Positions 465 through 7,494 of a stretch of 64,000 nucleotides of DNA are shown here, one piece after another. Made by a program: the position numbers and the translations under genes. Numbering within the stretch: position 1 is the first letter of the stretch; the number at the start of each line of letters is the position of its first letter. This stretch comes from Bacteroidia bacterium (GTDB lineage: Bacteria; Bacteroidota; Bacteroidia; J057). The notes below the pieces were generated by a model. The model saw nothing but the letters and a program-made list of their open reading frames with translations, was not told the origin of the DNA and searched no databases. Location: contig JAUIGE010000009.1 of the NCBI GenBank assembly GCA_030430205.1, forward strand, positions 124,001-188,000, read 5' to 3'.

Positions 465-493
465 AAAAATGAAACCCGGCAGCCTGCCGGGTT
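465..493 (-). terminator. Rho-independent terminator for the TonB/PKD operon
   Basis: A perfect 10-bp inverted repeat (arms 473-482 and 484-493, core CCCGGCAG/CTGCCGGG) lies between two convergent genes. Read on the minus strand the hairpin is followed by a run of six T (the A run at 463-469 on the plus strand), the expected form for a terminator of the minus-strand gene ending at 568. On the plus strand there is no T run, so it would serve the glycosyltransferase only weakly. Confidence 0.75.
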
Positions 494-567
494 CCTCCAT
501 ACCAATTAGGAATGTCATACTAATTAATAGATGTGTATGTACATTCTTAGAAAGCCACAAATTTTTA

Positions 568-1878
568 TCAGCCATTGTCCAGGTCAAAGCTGATGCGCAG
601 AGATTTGTAAACAGGCACTTTTTTCCCGTTTTGCTCTCCGGCAGCCCATGTAGGCATAGCTTCAATCATGCGGACGACTTCTGCATCATAGGGGTTACCC
701 AGGCCTTTTACGACATGTGGATTTTTGGCTTTTCCATTTTCATCCACAATAAAACGAACCGTAACTTTCCCTGATTTCTGATTGGAACTGGCCACCCGAG
801 GGTAGCGCAGGTTGCGCTGTATATAGCGACTCAGGCCTCTGTTTCCACCTGGAAACTCCGGCATCTTGCTTGCAGCAAAGAAAGGCTGGCTGTTATCAGC
901 ACCCGTAGCGGGGCTTGTATTGTTATTGCCAGCCGTGCTGGCTGGAGAGGCAGTCCTGTTGGTTGTGGGCCTTTCAGCCAAAGAAGTCTCAGGAATAGAG
1001 GGTTTATTGGCAGAAATAGCAGTTGAACTCAAAGAAGAAACTTCATTCAAAACAGGCGCATTATCCTCCAGACTTGAAATTTCGCCTCTTTCATTTGAGG
1101 CTACCAAAGGCTCTTCTAATTGAATCGCATTGGGATCCTCTATGGTGATAGGATAGGTAGCATAAATTCTTCTGGGCACGCCATCGCCGGAAGCGCGTAA
1201 CGTAATCACATATACCCCTGGCTTATCATAGCTGATGCGCGCTGTGCGCTCTATATCCTGACGGGTCCCGTCTCCAAAATCCATTTCATATTTGATATCA
1301 GACCGGAAGTTTAGGACCTGAATATTCAGGGTTTTGCCTATAGAGCGATCGCCTCTTACCCGAAATCCGAAATCGTTGGAAATCTGATCGCTATTATCTT
1401 CCTCATTGGCCGCAGGCATAGATTCTCCGTCATTTCCGAGAGCCACCTGCAAGGCATCGTCTACTGCTGATATCGTAGCATCATCCCCTTCTTCATCGCT
1501 GAAAAGGTCTGAGTTTGAAACCACATTAAATTGCCAATCCGTAGATCGGGAAATCAAAGATGCATATTCATTATAGGACACAACCGTGTCTCTGCGATCT
1601 TCTCCCGGATATCGAATCACCATGTGGTTATTGCCTCCGGTAAAAAAGGCCCTGACTTTATCATCCGTCAGTTCAGTTGCATAGAAGCTCCTAAATTTAG
1701 GGCTTTGTTCAGCTGAGGCGCCCATCTGCTGGTTCAGCATTTTGGGAACGAGTATCGCGCTGCCTGCAGCTACTATCCCGACAGCCCCCAGAAGAAAAAG
1801 CTTCGTTCTGCGACGTTTGCGTTCTTTCTTTTCAAGAGCTTGTAGGTAACCGTTAGATTGAGTTGCACTGCTTTTCAT
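568..1878 (-). CDS. TonB C-terminal domain protein with PKD-like domain
   Basis: A 436-residue single-pass membrane protein. A basic cytoplasmic N-terminus (residues 1-26) precedes one hydrophobic span (27-45). The periplasmic part holds a PKD-like beta-sandwich at about 185-248, with the signature DFGDGT near 200 and a GVYVITL strand. A Ser/Thr/Asn-rich linker follows (250-330), then a TonB C-terminal domain (340-436) with MPEFPGG, the LRYP motif and an IVDENGK turn. TonB_C domains contact outer-membrane partners, so this may couple the inner to the outer membrane. There is no Pro-rich spacer of the classic TonB kind, and no ExbB/ExbD genes are nearby. The start codon lies one base after the stop of the upstream gene, implying translational coupling. 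The partner is unknown. Confidence 0.75.
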   Translation of the reverse strand: MKSSATQSNGYLQALEKKERKRRRTKLFLLGAVGIVAAGSAILVPKMLNQQMGASAEQSPKFRSFYATELTDDKVRAFFTGGNNHMVIRYPGEDRRDTVVSYNEYASLISRSTDWQFNVVSNSDLFSDEEGDDATISAVDDALQVALGNDGESMPAANEEDNSDQISNDFGFRVRGDRSIGKTLNIQVLNFRSDIKYEMDFGDGTRQDIERTARISYDKPGVYVITLRASGDGVPRRIYATYPITIEDPNAIQLEEPLVASNERGEISSLEDNAPVLNEVSSLSSTAISANKPSIPETSLAERPTTNRTASPASTAGNNNTSPATGADNSQPFFAASKMPEFPGGNRGLSRYIQRNLRYPRVASSNQKSGKVTVRFIVDENGKAKNPHVVKGLGNPYDAEVVRMIEAMPTWAAGEQNGKKVPVYKSLRISFDLDNG

Positions 1879-1879
1879 C

Positions 1880-3757
1880 TTAAATATTTAGGTTTTTTCT
1901 GAATTCTTCATATACCCTAGGCTTCAACAAGCCCTTAAATACCTCATGGAGCTTCTGGGTCATCTCACTCACCGAGCAATCCTCGGAGGTAAAACCTACA
2001 AACTTGATCTCGGTACTTCTTTTCAATAACCCCTCCTGCACCACCAGGATATTAAAGTCTGCCAGGTTGGTATGAGGGACAGGGAGCCCTTTCACTTCAT
2101 CAAATACCCGCAGGATAAACTTGAGGTCCTTGCTGCTCAGCTTGGCGAAACTTTCGCGTTTGTCCATGCCGGTTTTCTTGATAAATTCTTTGAGGGTATT
2201 TCTGGGGATAAAATCCCGATAATAATATTTCCCTTCCAGGGCATCTTTTATTTCGCTAAGCTCCTGATAATAAATCAGTTCCTTCTGGTATAAGCGCTCA
2301 AAGCGAGCCACTTTTTCAGGGTTTGCCATGGCGTTGGCATCCAGCAAACGAATCACTTTATTGGCAGCGCTGCCCTTGAGTGATGCTTTTTTCGTTGCAA
2401 ATTCAGGATCTACCAAAACGCCCTTGATGTCAAATATCTCCTCCAGGCTTTTGAGTTTGCTTCCATTCACGCTATTGCTGGTCGCAGGCAGGTTGGAGCG
2501 AACCACCATATTGGTGGAGGAATATTCACTGTATGCGGGTGTTTGCAATGAAGCACTGCTGAGAGCTTCCTGTATATTCCAAACAATCACCTCTTTGGGC
2601 ATATTCAACTTGGCACCCAGGGCCACATATTTCTCTTCGTATTCATCTTTTTTAGAAGAATTGGTGCACTGCCTTCTGATAGCTTCCAACAATTTATCCC
2701 GCTCTGCTTTGAGGCGCTGCTCCCGCTCCAGGGCTTTTCTTCTCTCCTCTTCTTCGAGCCGAATTCGCTCCATTTCCTCCCTTTGTTTCTTGCTTTCAAC
2801 CGCCGAATGGCCCAGGCCTTTGATGATGGAAAGGTAATCTCCATCCCAGCCGTTTCTGCCAGGAGCAAGCAATTTGGATCCCAATTGCAGATCTTTATTG
2901 AGGTAATCGCGGAATACGCGGTTGTCAAGGTAGTCACCTAGCAGAACCACTTTTTTAACTCCCAGGCTTTCAATTTCCTCCTTGGAAAGCTTCTCTTTGA
3001 GACTAGCTACATTGGAGGCGCTTACCTCCTCTTGCCGGCGGGCTGTCATCCCGAGCTCAGCTTTGATCGTCACCTTGCCCGCGGAGCGGTTAACCCGGAA
3101 GGTCTGATCGCTAAAGCCTTTTTCAAGGCTGCTGTTGACCTGGCTTTGAAGTTGCTCTTTGGTTTTAGCATCCAGGGCCAATCCGGCCTGCGTAAACTGC
3201 TTCATCACCTCATTATAAATTTCAGAAGCTGCAGCAAACTGGCCTATTTCTTTAAAGGAAATATAGCGCAAAGCACCAGCTCCCTCTGACTTTCCATTAA
3301 GTTTGGCACCTGTCGGGATGTTGCAATAGCATACATTGAGATGCTCATCCAATGCTTCCAAAACAATGCAACTTTCTTCCGCTAAAGCAGTGCTTCCGTT
3401 CACTCCTCTGATATAGGAAATGGGCAGATGCTCTACATGAAAAAGTTCAAATTTTGCAGTTAGTTTTTTCTTAAAAAAATCAACTACATCACGGGTTTCA
3501 TAAAGTGATCCATCCTTTTTTTGATTTCCAACCGCAAAAGCTACAGCTGTTGGAATAAGCTCTTCAACAGATTTTCCATTATTCCGCTGAAATTGCGCGT
3601 ATGCGTTGGCGACTTTATCCAATCCGGCCTCCAAGGCCTGGAGCATGGGTTTACCTGCATAATCCAGGTATTTGCGTGTCCCAAAAGACAGAAGTTCGTT
3701 CTTCTCTCCATGTACACCTGCCAACAGTTTGCTCCGTGTTAAAATGATGCTTAGCAT
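1880..3757 (-). CDS. Uncharacterised coiled-coil protein, possible degenerate Hsp70/actin-like N-terminal domain
   Basis: 625 residues with no signal peptide or membrane span, so probably cytoplasmic. I do not recognise the family with certainty. Residues 1-290 have the pattern of an Hsp70/actin-fold protein: an IPTAVAFAVG strand near 68, a hydrophobic strand near 130-145 where the phosphate-binding loop would lie, and VKKVVLLGDYLDNRVFRDYL near 267-286. The last resembles the 'V.LVGG......' adenosine-loop strand of Hsp70, but its Gly-Gly is GD here, so nucleotide binding may be lost. Residues 320-365 form a highly charged coiled coil (EEEERRKALEREQRLKAERD). The remaining C-terminal ~260 residues are helical and featureless. 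The gene is first in a two-gene operon with the TonB/PKD membrane protein, one base apart, suggesting the two products work together across the inner membrane. The Hsp70 assignment is inference. Confidence 0.6.
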   Translation of the reverse strand: MLSIILTRSKLLAGVHGEKNELLSFGTRKYLDYAGKPMLQALEAGLDKVANAYAQFQRNNGKSVEELIPTAVAFAVGNQKKDGSLYETRDVVDFFKKKLTAKFELFHVEHLPISYIRGVNGSTALAEESCIVLEALDEHLNVCYCNIPTGAKLNGKSEGAGALRYISFKEIGQFAAASEIYNEVMKQFTQAGLALDAKTKEQLQSQVNSSLEKGFSDQTFRVNRSAGKVTIKAELGMTARRQEEVSASNVASLKEKLSKEEIESLGVKKVVLLGDYLDNRVFRDYLNKDLQLGSKLLAPGRNGWDGDYLSIIKGLGHSAVESKKQREEMERIRLEEEERRKALEREQRLKAERDKLLEAIRRQCTNSSKKDEYEEKYVALGAKLNMPKEVIVWNIQEALSSASLQTPAYSEYSSTNMVVRSNLPATSNSVNGSKLKSLEEIFDIKGVLVDPEFATKKASLKGSAANKVIRLLDANAMANPEKVARFERLYQKELIYYQELSEIKDALEGKYYYRDFIPRNTLKEFIKKTGMDKRESFAKLSSKDLKFILRVFDEVKGLPVPHTNLADFNILVVQEGLLKRSTEIKFVGFTSEDCSVSEMTQKLHEVFKGLLKPRVYEEFRKNLNI

Positions 3758-4203: not shown

Positions 4204-5178
4204 TTGAAAGACCTGATCAAATCATTTCTGCTAAAGAATAAATCCCTAAACATACTTGTAGTCGGCGATGTCATGGTCGACCAATACCTATGGGGTAAAA
4301 TGGAGCGAATCTCTCCCGAGGCACCAGTGCCTATCGTTGATATAGCGGCAAGAGAAAGGCGTTTGGGTGGAGCCGCCAATGCCGCCTTAAACCTGATAGC
4401 CCTGGGAGCCAGGTGCAGCCTTTGTGGAATAGTGGGTCAGGATGAGGCCGGGAATGCCTTGCGCAATCTGGCAAAGGAATCCAGCCTGGATACCTCGTTT
4501 CTTTTCCCCATTCAGGATCGAAAAACCACCCTGAAAACGCGCATCATCTGCGCCGGTCAGCAGGTGCTGAGGGTGGATGAAGAAGTCCGAACTGCTATCC
4601 CGGGAGAACTTGAAGCAGAAATTTGGAACAAATTGGAAGCTCGCCTACAGGAATTTGACGGTATTCTATTTTCGGATTACGATAAGGGCTTTCTTTCATC
4701 AAGCCTGATTCAGGCCATCATCCAACGAGCAAATGAGCTCGGAATCTCAAGCATGGTGGACCCGAAGTTCAAAAACTTCTGGCAGTATCGCGGCTGTAGC
4801 CTGTTCAAGCCCAATTTGAAAGAATTGAATGAAGGCCTTGGCCATCAACTCGCAAAGGACGATTTCAGGGGGATTGAAAATGCTATCGAGGAATTGAGAA
4901 CACAAATGCCCCATCAGCATACGCTGATTACCCTCAGCGAACAAGGCATGCTGCTGCTTTCGCAGGATGGGCAAGTGGCCCATTTAGCTGCGCATAGGCG
5001 TGAAATCATAGATGTTTCGGGAGCGGGGGATGCCGTGATGGCGGTGGCTGGGTTGGCGCTGGCGGGCGGATTTTCCGTCCTGGAAGCGGCCAGGCTCGCA
5101 AATATTGCGGGGGGATTGGTATGTGAAGAAATAGGCGTGACGCCTATCAGGCCGGAGAGGCTGTTGGGCAGTTTATAG
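4204..5178 (+). CDS. PfkB-family kinase, D-glycero-beta-D-manno-heptose-7-phosphate kinase-like
   Basis: 324 residues, read from TTG 4204 because the conserved N-terminal block NILVVGDVMVDQYLWG starts at residue 16 and there is no upstream ATG. Family features in order are GDVMVDQY, then ERISPEAPVP (the hallmark of the HldE/RfaE kinase domain), the GGAANAALNL sugar-binding motif, and the PfkB signature 2 DVSGAGDAVM near residue 275, whose Asp is the catalytic base. The ERISPEAPVP block separates it from ribokinase and fructokinase. The HldE-type reaction is ATP-dependent phosphorylation of heptose-7-phosphate at C1, in ADP-heptose supply for lipopolysaccharide. The nucleotidyltransferase half of bifunctional HldE is absent. 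Its last six bases overlap the convergent small gene. Confidence 0.8.
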   Translation: MKDLIKSFLLKNKSLNILVVGDVMVDQYLWGKMERISPEAPVPIVDIAARERRLGGAANAALNLIALGARCSLCGIVGQDEAGNALRNLAKESSLDTSFLFPIQDRKTTLKTRIICAGQQVLRVDEEVRTAIPGELEAEIWNKLEARLQEFDGILFSDYDKGFLSSSLIQAIIQRANELGISSMVDPKFKNFWQYRGCSLFKPNLKELNEGLGHQLAKDDFRGIENAIEELRTQMPHQHTLITLSEQGMLLLSQDGQVAHLAAHRREIIDVSGAGDAVMAVAGLALAGGFSVLEAARLANIAGGLVCEEIGVTPIRPERLLGSL

Positions 5179-5652: not shown

Positions 5653-7494
5653 ATGAAATTTAGCAATCTTCTAATTAAAACCGTGTTTCTTTTTTGTTGC
5701 CTTTTCATTAGCGGCAAGTTATTATCGGCGGAAGACATTTTAGCTGATACACTTTGTTTTTCCTGGAAAGTGGCTGGCGATTCTCCTGAATTGAAACAAG
5801 ATTTTGGTGAAGGGATTGAACTCAAAAAAGATGGTACATATCAAGTCCGTTATTACAGCAAAAAAGCGGATAGGCTCCTTCATAAGGCAGATTCTGTTTC
5901 TTTCGAAGGCCATTGGAAACTGCTAAAAGGTGATACCCTTTTGCTCATCCAGGAGCGCATTCCTATCATTTCAGGTATTGACTCTGTCGCTTATGAGGTT
6001 TCTGAAAACGGAAATCCTTCATTGACCTTTTTTTCAAAAGGTGCTGAGGTGGTTATTCAGGGTTTGAAAGAATTGGAATCTGAAAGGAGGATAAGCAAAT
6101 TTCATGTCCACATTGACGAAACCTCTAACCTTCTGTTGACATCTGCTGATGGCCAGGAAGTAAAACTCTATAGCAGGTTGGTTTTGGTCCCACCGCCTTT
6201 TGAATTCATGAATATCTTGAGGGGGCTTATTGGTATTTTATTCGTTTTGGCATTTTGCTGGGTGTTCAGTACAAACCGCAAAGCGATTGACTGGAAATTG
6301 GTAGGAGCAGGTATTTTTCTACAATTGACTTTCGCACTGCTTGTGCTCAAAGTGGAGATTGTTGGCAAAATCTTCCAGGCGGTTGTAAACGGCTTTGTAG
6401 CCGTGCTCAATTTCACCAAAGCAGGCACAGAATTTTTATTTGGGGCACTCCACGCTCCTTCGGAAAGTTGGTCTGTGATATTTGCATTCCAAATCCTCCC
6501 TATCATCGTCTTCTTTTCTGCCGTTACCTCTTTGCTTTATTATTTAGGCATCCTTCAACGAATAGTATATGGTTTTGCATGGGTAATGAGCAAAACCATG
6601 AGGCTGTCCGGGGCAGAAAGCCTTGCTGCTGCGGCCAATATATTTTTAGGCCAAACGGAAGCTCCTCTGCTGGTAAAGCCCTATCTCGAAAAAATGACCC
6701 GATCAGAAATCCTTTGTCTGATGGGAGGCGGAATGGCTACCATCGCCGGGAGTGTCTTTGCCGCTTATGTAAGTTTCCTGGGAGGTACTGACCTTGCGAT
6801 GCAACAACTTTTTGCCAAACATCTCCTTACGGCATCCATTATTGCGGCTCCTGGAGCCATTGTCGCAGCAAAAATGCTGTTGCCAGAAACAGAAAAAGTC
6901 AATACTGACTTAATGGTCTCAAAGGACAAGATCGGCTCCAATGTTCTGGATGCCATCACCAATGGCGCCACCGAAGGAATGAAACTCGCCGTCAACGTAG
7001 GCGTCATGCTCCTTGTATTCATCGCTTTTGTAAAAGGGATGAACTTCTTTTTAGGAGACGTTGTTGGAGATTTACTGGGGTTAAATGAGATGGTTGCCAG
7101 TTCGACAAACGGCAAATTCGATCAATTTGGTCTGGAGTACCTTTTTGGGATCGTTTTTGCGCCTATCGCCTGGCTACTGGGAGCCGCAGCTGAGGACATG
7201 CTGGTAGTGGGGCAGTTATTGGGGGAAAAAACGATAGTAAATGAATTTATAGCCTATAAATCTCTGAGTACAGTTAAAGATGCCGGCATATTAACCAATT
7301 ATAAATCCATAATCATTGCCACCTATGCCCTTTGTGGCTTTGCGAACATCTCCTCTATCGGTATTCAAATTGGGGGAATCGGGTCCCTGGCTCCCGGTCA
7401 AAGAAAAACCCTTTCTCAACTGGGGGTGAGAGCCCTGATTGTAGGGACAATGGCAGCCTTTCTCACGGCTTCTATTGCTGGCATGTTGTCTTAG
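5653..7494 (+). CDS. Concentrative nucleoside transporter (NupC/CNT family) with extracytoplasmic N-terminal domain
   Basis: 613 residues. The N-terminus is a signal peptide-like segment (1-25, LFCCLFISGKLLSA). A soluble beta-rich domain follows (about 30-180) with lipocalin-like patterning such as KKDGTYQVRYYS and FEGHWKLLKGDTLLL. From residue 188 the protein is a CNT transporter: several membrane spans, the family motif GQTEAPLLVKPY at 333-344, a GGMATIAGSVFAAYV segment and the GGIGSLAPGQR C-terminal block. CNT proteins import nucleosides using a cation gradient across the inner membrane; Glu336 of GQTEAPL is a known substrate-contacting position. Ordinary bacterial NupC is about 400 residues, so the extra ~185 residues are a fusion or extension. 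It probably stands alone in its transcript with its own promoter. Confidence 0.88.
   Translation: MKFSNLLIKTVFLFCCLFISGKLLSAEDILADTLCFSWKVAGDSPELKQDFGEGIELKKDGTYQVRYYSKKADRLLHKADSVSFEGHWKLLKGDTLLLIQERIPIISGIDSVAYEVSENGNPSLTFFSKGAEVVIQGLKELESERRISKFHVHIDETSNLLLTSADGQEVKLYSRLVLVPPPFEFMNILRGLIGILFVLAFCWVFSTNRKAIDWKLVGAGIFLQLTFALLVLKVEIVGKIFQAVVNGFVAVLNFTKAGTEFLFGALHAPSESWSVIFAFQILPIIVFFSAVTSLLYYLGILQRIVYGFAWVMSKTMRLSGAESLAAAANIFLGQTEAPLLVKPYLEKMTRSEILCLMGGGMATIAGSVFAAYVSFLGGTDLAMQQLFAKHLLTASIIAAPGAIVAAKMLLPETEKVNTDLMVSKDKIGSNVLDAITNGATEGMKLAVNVGVMLLVFIAFVKGMNFFLGDVVGDLLGLNEMVASSTNGKFDQFGLEYLFGIVFAPIAWLLGAAAEDMLVVGQLLGEKTIVNEFIAYKSLSTVKDAGILTNYKSIIIATYALCGFANISSIGIQIGGIGSLAPGQRKTLSQLGVRALIVGTMAAFLTASIAGMLS

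Follow-up and report, generated by a model that had tools for sequence, protein, structure and literature searches.

A soluble actin-fold protein that works with an inner-membrane protein is exemplified by PilM and PilN: PilM binds the N-terminus of PilN and also binds ATP, according to the sections of PMC6325625 drawn on here. The window analyzed in this study, i.e., a stretch of 64,000 nucleotides from a Bacteroidia bacterium (assembly GCA_030430205.1, contig JAUIGE010000009.1, positions 124,001 to 188,000; source genome 7.24 Mb), carries a gene pair with a comparable arrangement, in which P0002 (625 amino acids, aa) precedes P0001 (436 aa), a single-pass TonB/PKD protein. The pair differs from PilM–PilN in that P0002 lacks phosphate-loop motifs, matches Hsp70 in its predicted fold and adds a kinase-fold tail, whereas P0001 ends in a TonB_C domain. 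Judged from predicted models, P0002 looks like a two-headed pseudoenzyme, with both active sites apparently lost.

The other described systems resemble single parts of this pair. Hsp70/DnaK nucleotide-binding domains share the predicted fold of P0002 residues 1-326; however, P0002 has no recognizable phosphate motifs, has lost the adenosine Gly-Gly in most relatives and shows no detectable sequence similarity to Hsp70, and its head is followed by a helix, a linker and a kinase fold instead of a substrate-binding domain. In the portions of a 2025 review of bacterial pseudokinases used here (PMC12599244), ActPs2 is described with Arg for the beta-3 Lys, Asn for the HRD Asp and a lost DFG motif, and the pseudokinase domain of MviN (ActPs3) as non-catalytic and recruiting another protein. 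The tail of P0002 follows the loss pattern given there for ActPs2, but differs from both ActPs2 and MviN in a kinase-fold C-lobe that is cut short. OspG-type kinases resemble the tail in shape only (VIA Z 11.3, 152 aligned of 169, root mean square deviation (rmsd) 3.4); OspG was solved with adenylyl-imidodiphosphate (AMPPNP) bound, as its entry title states, whereas P0002 lacks the catalytic residues. P0001 resembles TonB in being single-pass with a C-terminal TonB_C, and one paralogue adjoins a TonB-dependent receptor, but its N-terminus is unlike those encoded by three TonB genes that stand in tandem in the window genome (L182-L184) and that we take to be ‘classical’, and it has a PKD-like stalk. 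Hsp70 proteins in other conflict systems are described in PMC7159879, the consulted parts of which mention neither TonB nor pseudokinases. The open-access literature searched yielded no protein with both an Hsp70-like and a kinase-like dead fold, and the words Hsp70, TonB and those beginning with Bacteroid- have 0 occurrences in the main text of PMC12599244, as far as its text was available. What the present analysis adds is that P0002 contains another nucleotide-binding fold, also apparently dead, and that a wider TonB/PKD family shares its tail with P0001.

The Hsp70-like head was guessed at in the earlier note, made from the letters of the window, and the predicted structure upholds that guess. 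The AlphaFold2 model of P0002 has a predicted local distance difference test (pLDDT) score of 78.1 and a predicted template modelling (pTM) score of 0.47, with pLDDT averages of 80-93 per block of ten within residues 1-120. In Foldseek, the 50 matches listed for the N-terminal model are Hsp70-family entries, some of them in complexes (best E 2.6e-11, rmsd mostly 5-8), and VIA aligned 293 residues of the 1-326 model with an Hsp70 nucleotide-binding domain at Z 20.1 and rmsd 4.1; the VIA matches listed also belong to the Hsp70 family, one being titled only ‘Chaperone Complex’. Residues 1-326 are thus predicted to adopt the Hsp70 nucleotide-binding-domain fold. Profile comparison did not bear out this relationship at the sequence level: hhalign of the P0002 N-terminal profile against DnaK/Hsp70-like profiles of related genomes gave 0.1-3% (best E 0.015), i.e., no significant similarity. 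The phosphate-1 and phosphate-2 motifs are missing in all 11 relatives that cover both places, which were located by eye against the Hsp70 motifs. The loss of Gly-Gly claimed earlier was confirmed: the first Gly (G274) of the adenosine motif is invariant, but only one of the 12 relatives (L036) keeps the second. Because both phosphate-loop segments lack their motifs, the head is probably, on sequence grounds, a dead ATPase; hence, of the ‘ATPase-like body’ proposed earlier, the fold stands and the ATPase probably does not. Between the two heads lies a flexible-looking linker, which the alignment shows lengthened to acidic or Pro-rich stretches in several relatives. A second Hsp70-like protein of about 829 aa with an intact GIDLGTT occurs elsewhere (L002, G000:C75:158925-160007), and proteins of this type and of similar length are found in several genomes of the order.

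The C-terminal third of P0002 is predicted to be a degenerate kinase fold, which the earlier note had overlooked while recognizing the Hsp70-like end. Modelled alone, residues 432-625 reached pLDDT 89.8 and pTM 0.83, and the 50 Foldseek matches listed for this model were all protein kinases (best E 4.0e-6). VIA, whose listed matches were likewise kinases, superposed it on Mycobacterium tuberculosis PknB over 178 residues (Z 12.0, rmsd 4.0), and in a viral fold library kinases made up most of its best rows, the remainder being a few proteins of other kinds or without a name. At the sequence level, hhalign matched a 12-member P0002 C-terminal profile with a profile of 12 kinases at 95.3% (E 2e-8), in a register that places HxxLxxxNILV of P0002 on HRDLKPSNIMI of the kinases, and three control pairs gave 0.1-0.3%. 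The 12 kinases were those kept, of 24 offered, for a stop-free segment with H-x-[D/N]-L-xxx-[N/K]-[IVLMF], a choice that favours recognizable catalytic loops; they come from G000, G001, G002, G003, G005, G007, G008 and G013, the last belonging to another family. Sequence-profile and structure evidence agree on the predicted kinase fold. Seven of the 12 aligned relatives have Asn at the HRD-Asp position and two have Asp, with Glu, Gly and His occurring once each; none has the DFG Asp; at the beta-3 position, nine have Arg and three have Lys; and the catalytic-loop Asn is kept in 11. Moreover, the chain stops about 35 residues past the DFG position, so that much of the C-lobe is missing. Judged by its motifs, the tail is without the full set of an active kinase (beta-3 Lys, HRD Asp and DFG Asp). 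Tandem kinase-like domains were seen in other frames: an 885-aa frame in G000 (C73:36896-38647; L068, L069) has two such domains, each with HGNL instead of the usual HRDL in its catalytic loop, and a frame matched twice by kinase models was likewise seen in G001 (871 aa) and in G016 (880 aa).

P0002 is confined, among the genomes searched, to one bacterial family. P0002 itself gave nothing over cut-off with Pfam or NCBIfam, nothing with PADLOC and no significant match among PDB sequences (phmmer/hmmsearch). Relatives with 27-62% identity are encoded in 9 other genomes of the same family, arguing that P0002 is no chance open reading frame (ORF); four of these relatives come from metagenome-assembled Bacteroidetes/Bacteroidia. 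When the order's 22 genomes were searched with a P0002 profile, 10 gave a match; every one of these belongs to the family of the window genome, which had 13 members in the search. A single-sequence search had matched 11 of 60 genomes, including a low-complexity frame in G018 that disappeared when the profile was used. Across 395 genomes of the class, the C-terminal profile found 8 family genomes plus 3 weak outside matches, and the N-terminal profile 8 family genomes plus one weak outside match (G392, over 30 positions). The three outside matches to the C-terminal profile were rejected by eye: L107 and L109, with H-x-D-L-K loops, are presumably true kinases, and L108 resembles what we take to be a response regulator. 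Among 395 genomes drawn from the phylum, the window genome was the sole match to the whole profile; the sample seems to contain no other carriers, since family members would have matched. No viral relative of P0002 was found. A third, broken P0002-like copy lies in G005 (L042:7885-11914), where fragments of the pseudo-Hsp70 head are spread over two frames and the latter frame continues into a very long charged, coiled-coil-like stretch; the genes after it presumably encode polysaccharide export and Wzc-like chain-length proteins.

The pairing of P0002 with P0001 is conserved in other genomes, as the earlier note had required of it. Fourteen P0002-type loci were seen, 12 of which were aligned, and a same-strand P0001-type gene stands next to P0002 at 10 of the 12 loci with a visible downstream side (L029, L030, L031 and L033-L039), at spacings from a 1-base overlap to 137 bases as measured from listed ORF starts; at L031 the P0001-type gene is split over two ORFs. 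The two further loci are L041, which ends with its contig, and L042, the broken copy, which has no P0001-type gene. Neighbours other than P0001 mostly differ among the loci. At five of them (L032, L034, L036, L037 and L038), two co-directional downstream genes, which we take to encode 6-phosphogluconate and glucose-6-phosphate dehydrogenases, are shared at distances of about 180-670 bases; this synteny was not taken as functional because it is absent in the window genome.

P0001 belongs to a wider family defined by its N-terminal module. Its most hydrophobic 19-residue stretch follows a basic tail, and tail, helix and juxtamembrane region are common to all ten relatives encoded next to P0002, five of which are short (251-270 aa) and without the PKD region that the others have; invariant columns of their alignment fall mostly in TonB_C. 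As to the domains named in the earlier note, TonB_C was recovered clearly, whereas PKD stays below cut-off in P0001 (PKD_4 E 5.3e-5, PKD E 0.0011) and exceeds it in three paralogues (L203, L198 and L201). A profile of P0001 residues 1-112, run on the 22 genomes of the order at E<=0.01, returned 31 rows from 11 genomes, namely the 10 P0002-bearing family genomes and, weakly, G015; it found nothing in the three family genomes without P0002. Tail-type proteins and P0002 therefore occur in the same 10 family genomes, and neither occurs in the other 3. Ten regions around tail matches were examined, leaving aside five weak ones (G015:C222, G008:C36, G004:C1422 and two in G005); one region (L204) proved unrelated, and a match in G000:C6 (E 0.0015) sits in a CHAT-STAND-TPR neighbourhood. 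At E<=1e-4, 25 tail-type proteins were collected from 19 loci, 10 beside P0002 and 15 elsewhere. The latter are often in tandem (L195, L196, L197, L199 and L202); part of them carry TonB_C, whereas others have just a PKD-like end, and at L195 and L196 a TonB_C-bearing protein adjoins a shorter neighbour that lacks this domain. The ORFs of these additional regions contained no further P0002.

In the 25 proteins, three consensus positions of the shared tail reach Tyr 83%, Glu 84% and Glu 96%, and the strict pattern [YF][IL]xxxExxE is present in 18, its second Glu being the position kept in 96%. The membrane helix of classical TonB contacts ExbB/ExbD and carries a conserved His. No His occurs in the most hydrophobic 19-residue stretch of any of the 25 tail-type proteins. 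At L203, a frame encoding the Plug domain of a TonB-dependent receptor is followed, 8 bases further on, by the start of a tail-type TonB gene. TonB_C was matched 13 times in the 7.2 Mb of the window genome, and among the 8 matches inspected, P0001 included, the tail was seen only in P0001. The coordinates of all features are collected in Table 1.

Table 1. Features of the P0002–P0001 locus, with positions counted from the first base of the window.
Feature	Position	Strand	Basis or remark
P0002 gene (625 aa)	1880..3757	-	pseudo-Hsp70 head, helical arm, linker, pseudokinase tail (from models)
Predicted Hsp70 nucleotide-binding-domain fold, P0002 residues 1-326	2780..3757	-	AlphaFold2, Foldseek, VIA
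Adenosine motif remnant KVVLLG, P0002 residues 269-274	2936..2953	-	motif table, alignment
One long, charged helix (303-363) plus a pair of shorter ones, P0002 residues 303-402	2552..2851	-	DSSP of model
Low-confidence linker, P0002 residues 404-432	2462..2548	-	pLDDT <50
Incomplete protein-kinase fold, P0002 residues 432-625	1883..2464	-	model, Foldseek, VIA, hhalign
Catalytic-loop equivalent HTNLADFNILV (HRDLKxxNILV), P0002 residues 562-572, Asp to Asn	2042..2074	-	hhalign, motif table
DFG equivalent GFT, P0002 residues 588-590, Asp lost	1988..1996	-	hhalign, motif table
P0001 gene (436 aa), single-pass TonB/PKD protein	568..1878	-	Pfam, hydropathy
Conserved cytoplasmic tail YLQALEKKERKRRRTK, P0001 residues 11-26, proposed docking peptide	1801..1848	-	alignment
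Predicted membrane helix without His, P0001 residues 27-45	1744..1800	-	Kyte-Doolittle mean 2.27
Conserved post-helix region common to paralogues, P0001 residues 62-112	1543..1695	-	alignment
PKD-like stretch, P0001 residues 192-233	1180..1305	-	below cut-off in P0001
TonB_C, P0001 residues 356-433	580..813	-	Pfam PF03544, E 8.6e-14, 52.2 bits (cut-off 24.6)
Terminator-like hairpin	471..495	-	3' of the pair; 11-pair stem, 7 G-C, ATTTTTT tail

The two-gene layout described at the outset, with one base (1879) between the ORFs and a terminator-like hairpin behind them (495-471), was borne out. The scan flagged 7 terminator-like sites, where shuffled sequences gave a mean of 5.2, but each of the other six has at most 8 pairs and at most 3 G-C pairs. 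The flanking genes include a pfkB-family kinase gene (4204-5178) and a nucleoside transporter gene (5653-7494), which are ordinary neighbours.

We propose that P0002 is a two-headed scaffold that docks, independently of nucleotide, on the tails of P0001-type TonB proteins, a reading to which we assign a probability of about 0.45. In this model, P0002 would reside in the cytoplasm, with the Hsp70-fold head and the kinase-fold tail joined by the long helix and a variable flexible linker, and would act as a binding scaffold rather than as an ATPase or kinase because both nucleotide sites appear lost. P0001 would cross the inner membrane once, its short tail on the cytoplasmic side docking on P0002 and its periplasmic part, i.e., the juxtamembrane region, sometimes PKD, the stalk and TonB_C, reaching a TonB-type receptor in the outer membrane; the pair could thereby tie or report the state of that receptor to a cytoplasmic scaffold, as PilM binds the tail of PilN. 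The computed support consists of the two folds, the lost active-site motifs, the kept pairing, the shared tail and the co-occurrence of the two protein types. From these we infer the docking of P0002 on P0001, the outer-membrane contact through TonB_C and a role in signalling or assembly. The shared tail would be a docking peptide for one common partner, with P0002 the obvious candidate, and the conserved tail, the co-occurrence and the TonB-receptor neighbour of one paralogue are consistent with a trans-envelope assembly.

Several observations weigh against this scaffold model, and the most probable alternative draws on some of them. No Pfam kinase model and no PF00012 (Hsp70) match was obtained for any of the 12 P0002 relatives at E<=5, the Hsp70 and kinase models also missed the P0002 locus when the window genome was scanned, and the predicted head fold comes from one AlphaFold2 model built from 5 sequences. 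A weak tail match (E 5.6e-4) in G015, a member of another family, occurs without P0002; 7 of the 25 tail-type proteins miss the strict pattern, which was derived from the same sequences in which it was counted, and relatedness explains part of it. The co-occurrence of P0002 and the tail may likewise reflect common descent in one family, and an rpoB tree does not separate loss from primary absence in the genus that has neither (2 of its 3 genomes are in the tree, the third having given no rpoB match). P0002 stands without an adjoining TonB gene at L032 and L040; in G010, where L032 lies, two tail-type genes are found on another contig. Accordingly, P0002 and P0001 might be operon-mates without contact, P0002 scaffolding or regulating other proteins such as the family's Ser/Thr kinases and P0001 being an ordinary TonB energized by ExbB and ExbD. 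The 15 tail-type proteins encoded away from P0002 fit this alternative, as do the PF00069 kinases found over cut-off in all 13 genomes examined, which a pseudokinase could regulate. However, the pairing persists at 10 of 12 loci although the genes around it mostly vary, the N-terminal module of the 25 proteins has some of its best-conserved positions in the tail, and the helix His of classical TonB is lacking throughout, so we regard separate functions as somewhat unlikely.

An ATP-dependent P0002 is less probable still. The protein could be a switch acting on P0001, an Hsp70-like clamp or an atypical kinase with non-canonical nucleotide-binding residues, given that both folds are predicted. 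The catalytic Asp is kept in 2 of 12 relatives, the beta-3 Lys in 3 (with Arg in the other 9) and the catalytic-loop Asn in nearly all, so that unusual nucleotide binding is possible, which also counts against a strictly nucleotide-independent scaffold; two bacterial pseudokinase families are discussed with alternative ATP-binding modes in the portions of PMC12599244 used here. Against such a switch stand the phosphate-loop motifs missing in 11 of 11 relatives and the DFG Asp missing in 12 of 12, as well as the little chain that remains after the DFG position and the short C-lobe, and we hold it to be improbable. A divergent module like PilM–PilN or GspL, from the platform of a type IV pilus or of type II secretion, would have the same layout, in which an ASKHA-fold protein of the cytoplasm comes before a protein that crosses the membrane once and has a short N-terminal tail. 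Yet P0001 ends in TonB_C, no pilus family was seen among the four window neighbours scanned with Pfam, and the fold matches listed are of the Hsp70 family, which is compatible with PilM too; such a module is very improbable.

On the scaffold model, the pair, which was found in a single small family of bacteria, appears to form a hitherto undescribed device with a structural or signalling role. A broader and more doubtful suggestion is that a nucleotide-independent pseudo-Hsp70/pseudokinase hub gathers several TonB- and PKD-tailed membrane proteins by one tail motif, so that events at outer-membrane receptors would be sensed or organized inside the cell without ATP-driven switching. With P0002, moreover, there is a pseudokinase-like family from bacteria whose group the main text of PMC12599244, in the form available, does not name. 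If P0002 does dock on TonB-type proteins, this would demonstrate that a body in the cytoplasm can be connected to TonB-like proteins, and it would bear on the route by which the state of outer-membrane receptors might reach the cytoplasm.

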